The notes under the pieces: model-generated
The model's database searches: none
What the model was told of the DNA's origin: nothing
Seen by the model: only the letters and a program-made list of their open reading frames with translations
Part shown: piece after piece, positions 13,141-27,890 of the stretch
Layout: every line of letters begins with the position of its first letter
Position numbering within the stretch: position 1 is the stretch's first letter
From: Oscillospiraceae bacterium
GTDB taxonomy: Bacteria > Bacillota > Clostridia > Oscillospirales > Oscillospiraceae
Direction of reading: 5' to 3'
NCBI GenBank assembly: GCA_017448455.1
Contig: JAFSLL010000274.1
Location: forward strand, 1-34,673
DNA: 34,673 bases
Program-made: the position numbers and the translations under genes

Positions 13141-14022
13141 ATGAAAAAGATACTTGCACTTGCTATGGCGCTCTGTATGCTTTTTGCGCTCTGTGCCTGC
13201 GGCCAGTCCGCAGCGCCTGCCGCTACTGAAGCGACTGCAGCCCCCGCAGAGGAAGCGGCCCCTGCCGAAGAGGCAGCACCGGCGGAAGAAGCGGCTTCAT
13301 CCGGCAGAACCTTTATTATGGGCATTGACCCGGAGTATCCCCCTTTCAGCTATCTGGGGGATGACGGCAACTACACCGGCTTTGACGTGGAAATCTGCCA
13401 GGCGGTCTGCGATTATCTCGGCTGGGAGCTTGAGATCTTCGGCGTGAACTGGGATGAGAAGCTGGTTCAGCTTGACTCCATGGAATGTGACTGCGTCTGG
13501 TCCGGCATGACCATCCTCGACAGCATGAAGGAATCCGGCTACAACATTTCCGAGCCCTACTATGACAACACCCAGGTGCTGGTTGTGAAGGCGGACAGCG
13601 GTTTTGCCTCTTCCGCGGACCTGACGGGCAAGGTTGTGGCGGTGCAGCTCGGCACCTCCGGTGAGGCCCTGCTCGGGGAAGATGGCGACCTTGCCGATCT
13701 CGCGGCGACCTTCGAGAGTGTCCTCACCTGCGACAGCTTCCTGAAGTGCTTCACTGAGCTCGAAGGCAACGCGGTGGACGCGGTCTTTGTCGATCTGCCT
13801 GTCGCGGCGAGCTATGTTGCCAGCCACGAAGGCCTTGCTGTGATTGATGAGAACCTCGGTGCCGAGCAGTACGGCATCGCCTTCCGCGCGGGTGACGCAG
13901 AGCTCTGTGCGCAGGTTGACGCGGCGGTGCAGGAGCTGGTTGCCAACGGCACGTATGCCGAGATCGCTTCCAAGCCGGAGTACGCGGAGATCGTCAACAA
14001 CCTGCTCTTCCTGAACGGCTGA
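13141..14022 (+). CDS. Amino-acid ABC transporter substrate-binding lipoprotein
   Basis: This extracytoplasmic receptor delivers an amino acid to the permease downstream. The 293-residue precursor has a lipoprotein signal with lipobox LCAC (lipidated Cys20). A low-complexity linker with three PAEEAA units follows (about residues 30-52). The SBP family 3 fold starts FIMGIDPEYPPFSYLGDDGNYTGFDVEIC and contains VQLDSMECDCVWSGMTI, SEPYYDN, GKVVAVQLGTSGEALL and a closing GIAFRAGD. GGAGGAATCA precedes the ATG. The PPF and GFDVEI motifs are typical of polar amino-acid receptors such as those for cystine, glutamine or histidine; the ligand is not readable. A stem-loop separates it from the permease gene. 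Confidence 0.93.
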   Translation: MKKILALAMALCMLFALCACGQSAAPAATEATAAPAEEAAPAEEAAPAEEAASSGRTFIMGIDPEYPPFSYLGDDGNYTGFDVEICQAVCDYLGWELEIFGVNWDEKLVQLDSMECDCVWSGMTILDSMKESGYNISEPYYDNTQVLVVKADSGFASSADLTGKVVAVQLGTSGEALLGEDGDLADLAATFESVLTCDSFLKCFTELEGNAVDAVFVDLPVAASYVASHEGLAVIDENLGAEQYGIAFRAGDAELCAQVDAAVQELVANGTYAEIASKPEYAEIVNNLLFLNG

Positions 14023-24445: not shown

Positions 24446-25240
24446 TCAGGAGAGCAGGACGGCGTCGGTTTCGAGCGGCGTGCCGGCGAGCTCATTGAAT
24501 TTCTGAATCAGTTCCGTGCGGGTCAGGTGCTTCTTTTCCTCCCCGCGGACGTCCAGAATAATCTGCCCGTTGTTCATCATGATCAGGCGGTTGCCGTGCG
24601 TGATGGCGTCTCCCATGTTATGGGTGATCATCAGTGTTGTGAGCCTGTTTTCCTGCACGATCCGGTCGGAGAGATCCAGAACCTTTGCTGCCGTGGCGGG
24701 GTCAAGAGCGGCGGTGTGCTCATCCAGCAGCAGCAGTTTCGGCTGACGCAGGGAGGCCATCAGCAGTGTAACTGCCTGGCGCTGTCCGCCGGAGAGCAGA
24801 CCTACCTTCGCGGTGAGGCGCTCCTCCAGACCGAGGCCCAGCGACTTCAGCAGCTCGCGGTATTCTTCCCGCTCCTCTTTGGTGACGCCCCAGCGGAAGC
24901 CGCGCTTCTGGCCCCGCCGTTTCGCGAGAGCCAGGTTCTCCTCCAGCTGCATGTTGGGTGCCGTTCCCATCATCGGATCCTGAAACACGCGGCCGATCAG
25001 TCCGGCACGCCGGTGCTCCGGCAGGGCAGTGACGTCCGTGCCGGCGAGGACAATACGCCCCTCATCCACTGGCCAGACGCCGGCGATGGCGTTGAGCATG
25101 GTGGATTTGCCGGCGCCGTTTCCACCGATCACCGTGACGAAGTCACCCGGGTCGAGATGAAGCGAAAGCTTGTCCAGCGCGCGCTTTTCATTGATGGTGC
25201 CGGGGTTAAAGGTCTTGCTGATCTCATGGATATCAAGCAT
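24446..25240 (-). CDS. ABC transporter ATP-binding protein (TrpXYZ-type)
   Basis: This is the ATPase of the importer encoded with the two genes upstream on the minus strand. The 264-residue protein has Walker A (GGNGAGKST), the Q-loop region GRVFQDPMMGTAPNMQLEENLALA, the signature LSGGQRQAVTLLMA, Walker B LLLLDEHTAALDP and the switch histidine in TLMITHNMGDAI. The DEHTAALDP box, with EH in place of EP, is typical of the TrpX/TrpZ-like group of Firmicute ABC systems. The start overlaps the permease end by eight bases, indicating translational coupling. A hairpin terminator follows. Confidence 0.93.
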   Translation of the reverse strand: MLDIHEISKTFNPGTINEKRALDKLSLHLDPGDFVTVIGGNGAGKSTMLNAIAGVWPVDEGRIVLAGTDVTALPEHRRAGLIGRVFQDPMMGTAPNMQLEENLALAKRRGQKRGFRWGVTKEEREEYRELLKSLGLGLEERLTAKVGLLSGGQRQAVTLLMASLRQPKLLLLDEHTAALDPATAAKVLDLSDRIVQENRLTTLMITHNMGDAITHGNRLIMMNNGQIILDVRGEEKKHLTRTELIQKFNELAGTPLETDAVLLS

Positions 25241-26183
25241 CGGTCTTCGCCCCCTTCTTTCTGAACTTCGAGAAGGAGCTCATCCGCTGTCCGCGCAGAT
25301 AGGGGACGGCCAGGAAGACCGCGACGATCACGGCGGTAAAGAGCTTCAGATCGTTGGAATTCAGCTTCAGCCAGAGCACGATGATGATGACCAGATAGTA
25401 AATAACACCGCCGAGGACCACAAAAGTCATGGTGCCGAAGAAGTTCAGGCGCCGCTTCAGAAGGGCGTTCCCGATGACTTCGCCGATGATGACGGCCGCA
25501 AGCCCGATGACGATGGCGCCGCGGCCCATGTTGATGTCCGCAAAGCCCTGATACTGGCTCATCAGTCCGCCGGAGAGTGCGACCACACCGTTGGACAGCG
25601 CCAGGCCGATCAGCTTCATGTTGTCAATGTTGATGCCGAGCGCGCGGCTCATGGCCGGGTTGTTGCCGGTTGCCCGGATGGCAGAGCCCTGCTCGGTGCC
25701 GAAGTACCAGTAAAAAAGTGCAATCAGTGCCAGCGCGATCAGGGCGGCGGTCAGAATGGCAGCCGGGATATGGCGGGAGCTGAGCACAAGCTGGTATTTG
25801 TCCACACTTACGGCTTTGTTGGCGGACATTCCCATAATCCGAAGATTGATGGAGTAGAGCGAGAGCTGCGTCAGAATTCCCGCCAGAATTGCGGGAATCC
25901 CCAGCCTGGTATGCAGAAGCCCGGTTGCGAGCCCGGCCAGCATGCCGATCAGAACCGCGATGATCAGGGCAGCCCAGGCGGGCCAGCCCGCAAGAATCAG
26001 CATGACCGTTACGGCGCCTCCGGTTGTGAAGGACCCGTCAACCGTCAGATCGGCGACATCCAGCAGACGAAAGGTAATATAGACGCCGAGCGCCATCAGA
26101 CCCCAGATCAGCCCCTGGGAGACGCCGCCCGGAAAGTTTTTGACCAGTTTCAGGAAGCTCAGAGAAGCGAAATATGCACTCAC
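25233..26183 (-). CDS. ABC transporter permease (TrpXYZ-type, branched-chain-permease fold)
   Basis: This membrane subunit belongs to the LivH-like permease family used by TrpXYZ-type transporters. The 316-residue protein has about eight or nine hydrophobic segments and conserved patches GLIWGLMALGVYITFRLLDVADLTVDGSF, HTRLGIPAILAGILTQ, GSAIRATGNNPAMSRALGINIDNMKLIGL and INMGRGAIVIGLAAVIIGE. The start is GTG 26183; AAGGAG lies about ten bases upstream. A strong stem-loop (26213-26234) separates it from the receptor gene, and the C-terminal end overlaps the ATPase start. Confidence 0.93.
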   Translation of the reverse strand: MSAYFASLSFLKLVKNFPGGVSQGLIWGLMALGVYITFRLLDVADLTVDGSFTTGGAVTVMLILAGWPAWAALIIAVLIGMLAGLATGLLHTRLGIPAILAGILTQLSLYSINLRIMGMSANKAVSVDKYQLVLSSRHIPAAILTAALIALALIALFYWYFGTEQGSAIRATGNNPAMSRALGINIDNMKLIGLALSNGVVALSGGLMSQYQGFADINMGRGAIVIGLAAVIIGEVIGNALLKRRLNFFGTMTFVVLGGVIYYLVIIIVLWLKLNSNDLKLFTAVIVAVFLAVPYLRGQRMSSFSKFRKKGAKTDA

Positions 26184-26212: not shown

Positions 26213-26234
26213 CCGCTCCCCCGCGGGGGAGCGG
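26213..26234 (-). other. Intercistronic stem-loop after the TrpX-like receptor gene
   Basis: CCGCTCCCCC (26213-26222) pairs with GGGGGAGCGG (26225-26234), ten GC-rich pairs with a minimal loop. The minus-strand tail CATTCTTAAC lacks a U-run, so mRNA stabilisation or partial termination is more likely than a full stop. Confidence 0.7.
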
Positions 26235-26257: not shown

Positions 26258-27289
26258 TCAGCCGGCGATCGCGACGTAGTCTTCGGGAACGGTGATGCCG
26301 AGCGCGCTGCAGTTGTCAGCGTTGTATTCCTTGGTGAACTGAGGCGCGTACGCGATGGGCATGGCGGAGACATCGGCGCCGTTGACAAGAATCTCATAGG
26401 CCATCTCGCCGGTGGCATAGCCAATGTCATAGTAGGAAATGGAGAGCGTCACAACACCGCAGCCGGAGCAGAGGTTTTCCTCGCCGCAGACAATGGGGAT
26501 GCCGGCGGGCAGGGCAACATTGTTGATGGCTTCGGCGCAGGAGGCGGCCATATTGTCGGTGGGGATGTAGAGAACTTCATTTTCGCCGCAGGCGGTGGTG
26601 GTGACAGCGGCGACGTCATTGGTGTCGGAGAAGGTGTACTCGGTAACGGTGTATCCGCGCTCCTCCAGCAGCGGAGCGATGGTCTCTACCTGGTACTTGG
26701 AGTTTGCCTCCGCGCTGCAGTAGAGAATGCCGACGGTCTTGGCGTCGGGGAAGATCTCAGCCAGCATGTCGGCCTGTCCGTCCAGCGGGGCGAGGTCCGA
26801 GGTGCCGGAGATGTTAATGCCGGTTGTGCCGTCAAAGCCGTCCAGACCGAGCGCCACGCCGTACTCCGTGATGGAGGTGCCGAGGACGGGGATGGTGTTG
26901 GTGGCGTTCTGCGCGGCCTGCAGGGCGGGCGTGGCGTTGGCCATGATCAGGTCGACCTCATCGGAGACAAAGGTGCCGATGATGGTGCTGCAGTTGGCGG
27001 AGTCGCCGGCAGCGTTCTGGTTGGAGATTGTGACCGCATCGCCGAGCTTCTCGGTCAGCGCGTCGATAAAGCCCTGGGTGGCGGCATCCAGAGCGGGATG
27101 CTGAACCAGCTGGCAGATTCCGACGCTGTAAGTCATGCCGGCCTCTTCGGCAGGGGCGGCCTCTTCGGCGGGAGCAGCTTCTTCAGCGGGAGCGGCCTGC
27201 TCGGAAGCGGCGGGAGCCGCAGTCTGCCCGCAGGCACAGAGCGCCAGCATCATGCACAGCGCGCAGAGAATCGCAAGAAACTTTTTCAT
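26258..27289 (-). CDS. ABC transporter substrate-binding lipoprotein, TrpX-like (probable aromatic amino acid receptor)
   Basis: This membrane-tethered receptor belongs to the ABC substrate-binding family that includes TrpX. The 343-residue precursor has a lipoprotein signal with lipobox LCAC (Cys20 from ATG 27289) and three PAEEAA linker units, nearly the same leader as the receptor at 13141. The mature fold starts YSVGICQLVQHPALDAATQGF and includes QNAAGDSANCSTI, DLIMANATPALQAAQNAT, IPVLGTSITEYG, GINISGTSDLAP and YIPTDNMAASCAEAI. TrpX-type receptors are linked to aromatic amino acids. Here the Phe/Tyr-rich leader peptide upstream supports phenylalanine or tyrosine. AAGGAGG lies a few bases before the ATG, which was chosen over longer frames because the signal peptide begins there. 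Confidence 0.92.
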   Translation of the reverse strand: MKKFLAILCALCMMLALCACGQTAAPAASEQAAPAEEAAPAEEAAPAEEAGMTYSVGICQLVQHPALDAATQGFIDALTEKLGDAVTISNQNAAGDSANCSTIIGTFVSDEVDLIMANATPALQAAQNATNTIPVLGTSITEYGVALGLDGFDGTTGINISGTSDLAPLDGQADMLAEIFPDAKTVGILYCSAEANSKYQVETIAPLLEERGYTVTEYTFSDTNDVAAVTTTACGENEVLYIPTDNMAASCAEAINNVALPAGIPIVCGEENLCSGCGVVTLSISYYDIGYATGEMAYEILVNGADVSAMPIAYAPQFTKEYNADNCSALGITVPEDYVAIAG

Positions 27290-27323
27290 TTTGTTATCCT
27301 CCTTTTTATTCGTCAGGGAAGGC

Positions 27324-27358
27324 AAAAAAGAAAGCCGCCCGGAGAAGTCCGTGCGGCT
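27324..27358 (-). terminator. Attenuator terminator in the leader of the TrpX-like operon
   Basis: In the minus-strand transcript AGCCGC (27358-27353) pairs with GCGGCT (27338-27333), followed by CGG/CCG and one further pair around a four-base loop. A U-run TTTCTTTTTT (27332-27323) comes next. It lies before the receptor gene, not after a gene, so it can only act as an attenuator. Its 5' arm is also part of an alternative helix (see the leader element). Confidence 0.85.
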
Positions 27359-27397
27359 GAATCGGTGAAAGAAAAAACTTTTGCAGCACAAACTTCT
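27343..27397 (-). promoter_or_regulatory. Antiterminator helix of the aromatic amino acid attenuator
   Basis: AGAAGTTTGTGC (27397-27386) can pair with GCACGGACTTCT (27354-27343): ten Watson-Crick and two adjacent G-U pairs, uninterrupted. The 3' strand includes GCACGG of the terminator 5' arm, so both structures cannot exist together. The 5' strand starts one base after the leader peptide's TAA, where a ribosome at the stop codon would cover it. Confidence 0.75.
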
Positions 27398-27398
27398 A

Positions 27399-27458
27399 TT
27401 ACTTTACAAAACGAAAGTAATAGCGGTAGGCGTAGACTGCAAAAGAGAAAGCCTTCAT
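27399..27458 (-). CDS. Phe/Tyr-rich leader peptide (attenuation)
   Basis: A 19-residue peptide, MKAFSFAVYAYRYYFRFVK, is encoded just upstream of the attenuator. Phe lies at 4, 6, 15 and 17 and Tyr at 9, 11, 13 and 14, so eight of nineteen residues are aromatic. It ends with tandem stops TAA TAG. The chosen ATG (27458) has GGAGGG ten bases upstream; in-frame ATGs at 27476 and 27467 would add six or three residues but have no spaced ribosome site. Stalling at Tyr/Phe codons would leave the antiterminator strand free, and finishing translation would block it. A hairpin TTACTTT/AAAGTAA (27420-27414, 27405-27399) spans the codons 13-15 region and the stop. It is analogous in logic to enterobacterial pheL. 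The function is inferred from sequence alone. Confidence 0.8.
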   Translation of the reverse strand: MKAFSFAVYAYRYYFRFVK

Positions 27459-27490
27459 GCTTTTCATGCCCTCCATCTGAAACTGCGGCC

Positions 27491-27519
27491 ACTTTAGCAC
27501 GTTTTGGTGCTAAAGTCAA
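27491..27519 (-). promoter_or_regulatory. Promoter of the TrpX-like operon with an embedded operator dyad
   Basis: On the minus strand TTGACT (27514-27519), a 17-bp spacer and TAAAGT (27491-27496) preceded by TGC. The whole interval 27491-27516 is a perfect dyad: ACTTTAGCAC, six bases, GTGCTAAAGT, covering both the -10 and the edge of the -35. A repressor bound there would exclude RNA polymerase. No regulator gene is adjacent. Confidence 0.75.
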
Positions 27520-27527
27520 GTGGCGAC

Positions 27528-27556
27528 TTGTCTTTTCCCGGAAAGAATGGTATGAT
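27528..27556 (+). promoter_or_regulatory. Divergent promoter for the small membrane protein and phosphatase genes
   Basis: TTGTCT (27528-27533), a 17-bp spacer and TATGAT (27551-27556) with TGG before it. It abuts the operator dyad of the divergent ABC operon. Confidence 0.65.
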
Positions 27557-27590
27557 GACACAAAATCTCCTTCAAAGGGCGTGATTCTTT

Positions 27591-27890
27591 ATGCAATATG
27601 TCGTCGGCGCGGTGCTTGGCCTCGTCTGGGGCGCCTTGCTGGCTTGGGTGAATTCCCGCATCAATAAACGGGCGGTCCAAAAAAACAGCAGCAATGCGGT
27701 GATGGCGGCGAGTCTCCTGCGCACGCTGATCGATCTCCTCGGCCTGGGTGCGGTTTTTCTGCTGCGCAAAGTTCTTCCGTTCAATTTTGAGGCGACCATT
27801 GTCGGGACGGCGGCCTCGCTGGGTCTGCTGACGGTCTACTTTGCCTTCCGCCTCTCCAAACCGGAGAAGAAAGAGCAGGGGAAATCCTGA
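27591..27890 (+). CDS. Small three-span membrane protein of unknown function
   Basis: This 99-residue protein has three hydrophobic stretches: about 3-20 (VVGAVLGLVWGALLAWV), 45-62 (TLIDLLGLGAVFLLRKV) and 68-88 (ATIVGTAASLGLLTVYFAF). A polar loop NSRINKRAVQKNSSN follows the first and a lysine-rich tail follows the last. The layout recalls ATP synthase subunit I-like proteins, but no ATPase gene is near, so this is only a resemblance. An AAGGG tract lies about ten bases before the ATG. It is followed within 60 bases by the phosphatase gene on the same transcript. Confidence 0.75.
   Translation: MQYVVGAVLGLVWGALLAWVNSRINKRAVQKNSSNAVMAASLLRTLIDLLGLGAVFLLRKVLPFNFEATIVGTAASLGLLTVYFAFRLSKPEKKEQGKS

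Follow-up and report, generated by a model that had tools for sequence, protein, structure and literature searches.

Which mechanism controls the uptake of aromatic amino acids in gut Clostridia was the question raised by a short leader that precedes the genes of an ABC (ATP-binding cassette) importer in an Oscillospiraceae bacterium. The leader lies in a 34,673-nucleotide stretch of DNA, referred to as the window (contig JAFSLL010000274.1 of assembly GCA_017448455.1). T-boxes are the textbook answer in this phylum. The host is a gut Clostridia bacterium, and its genus includes Candidatus Limivicinus faecipullorum of the class Clostridia (record L041 and genome G003 have identical 200 bases upstream of the receptor gene). 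Based on an open reading frame (ORF), helices, conservation, gene association and codon matching, all taken from sequence and comparison, it was concluded with a probability of about 0.88 that the locus is a ribosome-mediated transcription attenuator, reporting charged tRNA-Tyr (tRNA-Phe less) and governing an ABC importer for an aromatic amino acid, probably tyrosine.

All parts of the leader read in a first-pass annotation of the same letters, i.e., the promoter, the ribosome site, the 19-codon ORF, the antiterminator and the overlapping terminator, were recovered base for base (Table 1). A similar promoter was recognized by eye upstream of most relatives inspected. An extra in-frame ATG, absent from that annotation, was found at 27467-27465 upstream of the leader ORF start; it is probably too near the GGAGGG ribosome site. 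At least eight Tyr and Phe codons within 18 codons were obtained in 0.0175% of 200,000 base shuffles. All 12 of the 12 antiterminator pairs (27397-27386 with 27354-27343) were standard, two of them U-G, with a duplex energy of -16.0 kcal/mol, and the terminator hairpin (27358-27333), which is followed by UUCUUUUUU, had a folding energy of -16.3 kcal/mol. The two structures use one common strand, 27354-27343. A simple terminator scan of the window did not call this terminator, probably due to its internal mismatches and broken U-run. The whole leader was more stable than shuffled sequences (z-score of -3.94; 1 of 200 shuffles was as stable), and the strongest part of its fold, at -22.5 kcal/mol, was a P1/P2 hairpin that had been overlooked before. 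In this hairpin, P2 pairs the Tyr-codon arm with the stop-codon arm. Of the thirteen bases 27398-27386, which hold the antiterminator strand, 27397, 27396 and 27386 are occupied by P1/P2 and the others are enclosed, and the hairpin competes with the antiterminator in the folding.

Among 101 genomes of the genus, 75 carried the receptor gene of the importer, and the upstream regions were read for 70 of the 75. In 60 of these 70 regions (61 with the corrected L122 gene start), a script detected an ORF rich in aromatic codons together with a ribosome site. After by-eye additions (L021, cut by a contig end, the variant L156, and L122) and exclusion of L150, a bare contig end, an aromatic leader was counted in 63 of the 69 assessable transporter loci, the window included. 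Of 69 reverse strands, 1 passed the same search for ORFs, as did 1 of 69 shuffled upstream regions. The conserved Phe and Tyr codons anticipated upstream of related receptor genes were thereby found.

The genus set was pooled with the best 80 of 214 named receptor loci, the two sets overlapping. This gave 59 distinct leaders, each with a terminator and with the core GUUUGUGCUGC or one closely similar to it; L127 and L155, without the conserved core, were left out. Alignment A1 comprised 55 of the 59 leaders after near-identical ones had been dropped. Within it, 97.2% of the antiterminator cells were paired and both sides had changed in 5 of 13 pairs; slid versions of this helix were 27-51% paired. 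For the terminator, 91.8% of the cells were paired and 6 of 10 pairs were changed on both sides. The covariation score of each helix was reached by 0 of 500 shuffles, a test that the kinship of the sequences can inflate. Hence, the compensatory changes that were sought in homologous leaders were present in both helices. All 59 leaders were able to form P2, with 7-8 of its 8 pairs. The share of Tyr and Phe among the codons of 58 leaders was 34% in the ORF frame; the two remaining frames gave 6% and 9%, and shuffled bases 11%. This frame-specific result was favoured by the aromatic filter used in leader selection. The two synonymous codons of Tyr were both in use, as were those of Phe. By eye, L127, L155 and L156 were aromatic leaders that lacked the GUUUGUGCUGC core and had a terminator-like end, forming a divergent subtype. 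Likewise by eye, other receptor homologs (L063 and L072) were seen to be preceded by a similar long frame that contained codons for aromatic residues and His and lacked the core.

To model the choice between the helices, a segment as long as a ribosome was masked during folding; the nascent RNA of the window was taken to end at 27341. The modelled probability of the antiterminator in this RNA was 0.01 without a ribosome; it was 0.98-0.99 when a ribosome stood at Tyr codon 11, 13 or 14 and 0.00 when it stood at the stop codon. The means for the nascent RNAs of the 59 leaders, one row of which (L122, not in the 58-leader sets) was read from a wrong start codon, were 0.23, 0.885 for Tyr codons, 0.861 for Phe codons and 0.05, respectively. 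In 58 leaders, Tyr and Phe made up 44% of the codons at stall sites permitting the antiterminator and 9% at the non-permissive ones. When folded in two states, as had been suggested, the nascent RNA of the window switched with the ribosome position in the model, and in the full-length RNA the terminator mostly prevailed at equilibrium. Since the terminator leads at equilibrium, the switch would have to be kinetic, with the antiterminator forming first.

It was proposed that the switch would work as follows. In the absence of a ribosome, P1/P2 would form and the antiterminator would not, so that the terminator would end transcription; such termination in the window leader would be due to the competing hairpin. 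When Tyr-tRNA is ample, the ribosome would get to the stop codon and cover the antiterminator strand, and transcription would end as well. When Tyr-tRNA is scarce, we infer that the ribosome would stall at Tyr codon 11, 13 or 14, opening P1/P2 and leaving 27397-27386 free. The free strand would pair with 27354-27343 before the 3' arm of the terminator exists, and transcription would run into the importer genes.

Table 1. Coordinates of the leader parts, the importer genes and the promoter palindrome in the window
Feature	Position	Strand	Description
Promoter	27491..27519	minus	-35 TTGACT 27519-27514; 17-nt spacer; TG-extended -10 TAAAGT 27496-27491
Ribosome site of leader ORF	27469..27474	minus	GGAGGG; read from sequence
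Leader ORF	27399..27458	minus	MKAFSFAVYAYRYYFRFVK; 19 codons, 4 Phe and 4 Tyr; stop TAA, then TAG
Competing hairpin P1/P2	27378..27445	minus	P1 27445-27437 with 27386-27378 (9 bp); P2 27423-27414 with 27405-27396 (10 bp)
Antiterminator, 5' strand	27386..27397	minus	AGAAGUUUGUGC; conserved core GUUUGUGCUGC or close variants
Antiterminator, 3' strand	27343..27354	minus	GCACGGACUUCU; within terminator hairpin
Intrinsic terminator	27324..27358	minus	Stem-loop 27358-27333 and U tract 27332-27324
Receptor gene (controlled gene)	26258..27289	minus	Lipoprotein component of aromatic amino-acid ABC importer, PF04392; predicted tyrosine-binding
Importer permease gene	25233..26183	minus	PF02653
Importer ATPase gene	24446..25240	minus	PF00005
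Palindrome, 26 bp	27491..27516		ACTTTAGCAC-N6-GTGCTAAAGT; over promoter; possible operator; absent from first-pass annotation

A covariance model trained on the transporter leaders only found a second copy in the same genome (C260:17723-17837, E-value of 1.4e-9), the leader of which, MSAVRFAFRYYYFTVSER, sits before aroF (DAHP synthase). Using this model, matches were recorded in 137 of 400 genomes (47 of 106 genera) of the family and in 21 of 295 genomes in the search of the order, 8 of the latter being from the same family. A second model, trained on the family and order matches, was used for the class and matched 37 of 391 genomes. The downstream gene was checked for 110 of the matches listed in the own-genome, family and order searches, and aroF was the target of 86, this receptor gene of 14 (some of these leaders had been in the model) and other genes of 10. 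The attenuator had been described earlier as belonging to the transporter, whereas the commonest target of the element is aroF. The ten other targets were three pheA genes, one trpB-like gene, one tyrS gene (443 bases downstream, behind an 86-codon ORF), two phenylacetate-CoA-ligase-like genes, two sodium:solute symporter genes and one contig end. In the class, 29 loci comprised aroF (23 by script and L311 by eye), one pheA, one tyrS (leader composition F2Y3), one tyrA and two loci without assignment.

Further, the codon composition of the leaders was compared with the downstream genes. The mean Tyr/(Tyr+Phe) ratio was 0.50 for aroF (44 leaders) and 0.61 for the transporter (58 leaders). Ratios of 0.14, 0.14, 0.17 and 0.40 were obtained for four pheA leaders, and 0.60 and 0.67 for two tyrS leaders. 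The three pheA leaders among the checked matches were of the Phe type (F5-6, Y1); the peptides of L289 and L290 were identical, L290 being assigned to pheA through its likeness to L289. The leader of the trpB-like gene (L288) contained WWFWF and was the only listed leader with at least two Trp codons among those tabulated. Differences were seen within single genomes as well: F4Y5 before aroF and F5Y1 before pheA in G205, F4Y5 and F3Y5 before aroF and F6Y1 before pheA in G261 and G194, and F2Y3W1 before aroF and F5Y0W3 before the trpB-like gene in G275. Because pheA leaders were rich in Phe, the trpB-like leader in Trp and the tyrS leaders in Tyr, the leader codons tend, as far as these few pheA, tyrS and trpB-like cases go, to track the downstream pathway. 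The downstream genes serve the synthesis, tRNA loading or uptake of the amino acid whose codons the leader carries, the importer substrate being a prediction. Phe-rich family leaders were also observed before the phenylacetate-CoA-ligase-like genes (L270 and L282), hinting at a possible phenylalanine salvage from phenylacetate, and Tyr-rich ones before the sodium:solute symporter genes (L253 and L281), which are candidate tyrosine transporters.

The antiterminator, which was outside the model, was paired in 82.5% of the cells in 99 matches, compared to 77.9 after shuffling (0 of 500), and 85 cells were changed on both sides, compared to 27.0 (0 of 500). Some of its columns were unpaired in one third of the rows, and one row of this alignment (A2), L240 on the minus strand, was probably false. 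We favour, with modest confidence, the proposal that an old attenuator scaffold (the ORF, the hairpin of Tyr-codon and stop-codon arms, the GUUUGUGCUGC core and the terminator) spread through Clostridia with aroF as its home gene and was re-used before the tyrosine importer, pheA, tyrA, tyrS, trpB-like and phenylacetate-CoA-ligase-like genes, the sensor codons being swapped among Tyr, Phe and Trp and the RNA scaffold being kept by compensatory changes. Leader-peptide attenuation, as initially suggested for the window, was therefore supported by the conserved ORF, the overlapping helices with compensatory changes, the aroF copy in the same genome and the codon swaps fitting the gene.

The amino acid sensed was approached through the receptor, for which the closest solved relative was CD0873 of C. 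difficile (E-value of 1.2e-52). CD0873 is a tyrosine-binding receptor, in which Glu-263 bonds the tyrosine hydroxyl and Tyr-279 excludes Trp, whereas Phe- and Trp-binding relatives carry Ala, or Ala and Gln, at these positions (PMC6816091). Glu270 and Tyr286 of the window receptor aligned with these residues, the numbering being matched from the alignment. Among 150 rows of receptor relatives, in which some genes occur twice, position 270 was Glu in 149 and position 286 was Tyr in 150. The receptor scored 222 bits against the TrpX model NF041285, under the cut-off of 390. The TrpX-like label given to it previously was therefore abandoned in favour of a tyrosine type, and since the two residues credited with the tyrosine specificity of CD0873 are kept, the leader of this transporter probably answers mainly to Tyr. 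It had been proposed that the levels of charged tRNA-Tyr and tRNA-Phe control the import; on the basis of the pocket residues, the Tyr part was retained and Phe was given a probably lesser role. A match between receptor pocket type and leader type was considered and rejected, as the pocket was nearly invariant and also stood behind Phe-rich leaders.

The alternative that survived best was the same attenuator with Phe and Tyr as equal signals, i.e., a general aromatic sensor, or with Phe as the main one. The window leader has four Phe codons, Phe was present in 53 of 58 transporter leaders, and the nascent antiterminator probabilities of 0.861 and 0.885 given above for Phe and Tyr were alike. 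At least three Phe-rich transporter leaders (L125, L126 and L130) precede receptors with a tyrosine-type pocket, so the leaders favour this alternative while the pocket does not. Tyr was found in all 58 transporter leaders, at least three times in 53 of them, and the five leaders without Phe each had at least one Tyr. In addition, a ribosome at Phe15 or Phe17 of the full-length RNA gave an antiterminator probability of 0.00. An equal or leading role of Phe was thus regarded as possible but rather unlikely.

Apart from the Phe-rich leaders, the kinship of the sequences and the partial selection of the 59 leaders for aromatic ORFs, several other observations weigh against a tyrosine-reporting attenuator. 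The leader was absent from 6 of the 69 assessable genus loci and, among the best 80 named loci, the ORF was found in 30 and missing in 50; four named loci picked by the script (L054, L091, L095 and L107) appear unrelated. Because of these 50 loci, most receptor relatives beyond this lineage seem to be under other control. Homologs devoid of the ORF or the helices had been named at the outset as evidence to the contrary, and they do exist in these numbers; where the ORF was present, the helices accompanied it, few variants excepted. When P2 arms were swapped between leaders, 7.51 of 8 pairs were still formed compared to 7.75 in the native and 6.61 in the shuffled arms. As arm-swapped leaders pair nearly equally, the covariation support for P2 comes from a few divergent cases, namely CTTTTACT with AGTAAAAG (L109) and CCGCTCCT with GGTAGCGG (L125, 7 of 8). 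In the nascent RNA, the antiterminator was also obtained with stalls at the majority of the earlier codons and with stalls at Phe codons, and thus folding alone cannot single out Tyr. In 13 of the 59 leaders the nascent antiterminator formed without a ribosome (probability of at least 0.5), and in L119 its probability was still 0.96 with a ribosome at the stop codon. At full-length equilibrium with a ribosome at Tyr 11, 13 or 14, values of 0.57-0.92 were calculated for the terminator and 0.05-0.40 for the antiterminator over three footprints. In the class, the pheA leader (L298, 30% identity; F6Y4) and the leader of tyrA (prephenate dehydrogenase; L309, below the family cut-off; F5Y4) had mixed codons. 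Finally, the genome that contains the window is a bin made up of 308 contigs, and its contamination is 7%.

Control mainly at the promoter, by a repressor bound to the palindrome 27516-27491 and with only a minor attenuator, was considered improbable. The palindrome overlaps the promoter, a related 28-bp palindrome was kept at four leaderless genus loci (L133, L140, L144 and L146), and the genome has two TrpR-family genes. A search of 61 genomes for the exact CACTTTA-N14-TAAAGTG recovered three of the four leaderless loci, and 4 of the 5 genomes matching it carried the match beside this transporter gene. However, the left half of the palindrome was lost in several leaders, ACTTTA-N14-TAAAGT had no second exact copy in the genome, and sites of the HisR type have a 6-base spacer, not a 14-base one (PMC9413887). 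A second layer of control at the promoter would also be compatible with attenuation.

A metabolite riboswitch or a protein-bound leader, in which the ORF would be incidental, was judged very improbable. The RNA core GUUUGUGCUGC is strongly conserved, and T-boxes and other RNAs control such genes, but the aromatic codons are frame-specific and vary with the downstream gene, and the conservation of the core is accounted for by its pairing in two alternative helices. The Rfam scan of the window returned no family at threshold. No match to the T-box (RF00230), which differs in sensing tRNA directly and without translation, was obtained in the window, nor in 27200-27600 at E-values up to 1. T-boxes were found in the same genome before valS, pheS, thrS and asnB (3 of 4 below the Rfam threshold, E-values of 4e-15 or better), and one preceded a related receptor gene in another lineage (L043; 78.6 bits, threshold of 93, E-value of 3e-17). 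The trpB motif (RF04312) resembles the leader in having a hairpin and a terminator before amino-acid ABC genes (PMC11109978); it scored 22.3 bits in the window against a threshold of 59 (E-value of 0.76), and no aromatic ORF was seen in its consensus. The weak window matches to this motif and to suhB were judged to be chance, for the former because matches of 27-35 bits to the trpB family occurred in 20 of 40 related genomes and none was above threshold. A drug-sensing leader comparable to those of erm or bmr, with stalling caused by a ribosome-binding antibiotic, shares the short ORF and terminator before an ABC gene but was considered extremely improbable, as the downstream genes encode an importer and enzymes of amino-acid synthesis and the codons tend to correspond to the amino acid produced or transported.

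The tyrosine-reporting attenuator belongs to a known class of mechanism, described in Firmicutes too for His, and its aromatic family is without an Rfam match. Leader-peptide attenuation is classical in enterobacteria, as in pheA/pheST and trp of E. coli (PMC11802643). These share with the window leader a short ORF in which codons of the regulated amino acid abound, and alternative antiterminator and terminator structures; here, in contrast, the phylum is another one, Tyr is the main codon and the targets are aroF and an importer. The aroR leader of aroF in Corynebacterium glutamicum contains Phe-Tyr-Phe and acts by ribosome stalling (Neshat 2014, as told in PMC11802643). It is likewise an aromatic leader before a DAHP synthase gene, but, compared by description, it is actinobacterial and without described transporter, pheA, tyrS or trpB-like targets. 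Leader-peptide attenuators of Firmicutes with His codons were predicted in 2010 and 2022 (PMC2965389, PMC9413887). They represent the same Gram-positive mechanism and swap with T-boxes, differing in histidine codons, his genes and taxa. The uORFC-13-1 motif, reported upstream of aroF of Acholeplasma in 2021 (PMC8632094), has an upstream ORF with a Phe codon, a terminator and aroF in common with the present family; by its description, it covers Acholeplasma and environmental sequences only (24 examples). The first-pass annotation had set T-box or TRAP control of Gram-positive aromatic transporters against attenuation in enterobacteria; the classical standing of the latter was confirmed, but the contrast was too sharp because the His leaders of Firmicutes and the upstream ORF of aroF in Acholeplasma had been predicted earlier. 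A literature search, with most subscription journals outside its reach, did not turn up any clostridial attenuator with a Tyr/Phe leader, either for aroF or for this transporter.

Regarding the gene layout, the PF04392 receptor gene comes first after the leader, with the permease and ATPase genes downstream. A perfect inverted repeat, GCTCCCCCGCGGGGGAGC, is situated at 26215-26232 in the gap between the receptor and permease genes. A divergent plus-strand ORF of 99 aa (27591-27890) adjoins the leader promoter and had no match in a Pfam search. The first 58 residues of a second ORF (13141-13326), a signal-peptide region, were 78% identical to those of the receptor. Close receptor homologs (64-65%) were found in a Spirochaetales record and in Bullifex porci (L108 and L111), which suggests a possible transfer of the importer between lineages.

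If the attenuator acts as proposed, aromatic amino acid synthesis and import in many Clostridia would be governed by the translation of a tiny peptide, besides T-boxes. If the scaffold reading is true as well, a leader-peptide aromatic regulon would exist in the phylum where the T-box is the textbook device, and a family missing from Rfam would be supplied. With Tyr, Phe and Trp variants of a single scaffold occurring in nature, the codon-to-amino-acid specificity would be directly testable, and leader codons may predict the substrates of transporters. The presence of a T-box before pheS and of attenuators before aroF and the importer in one genome would provide a good setting for the question of how a regulatory device is chosen.

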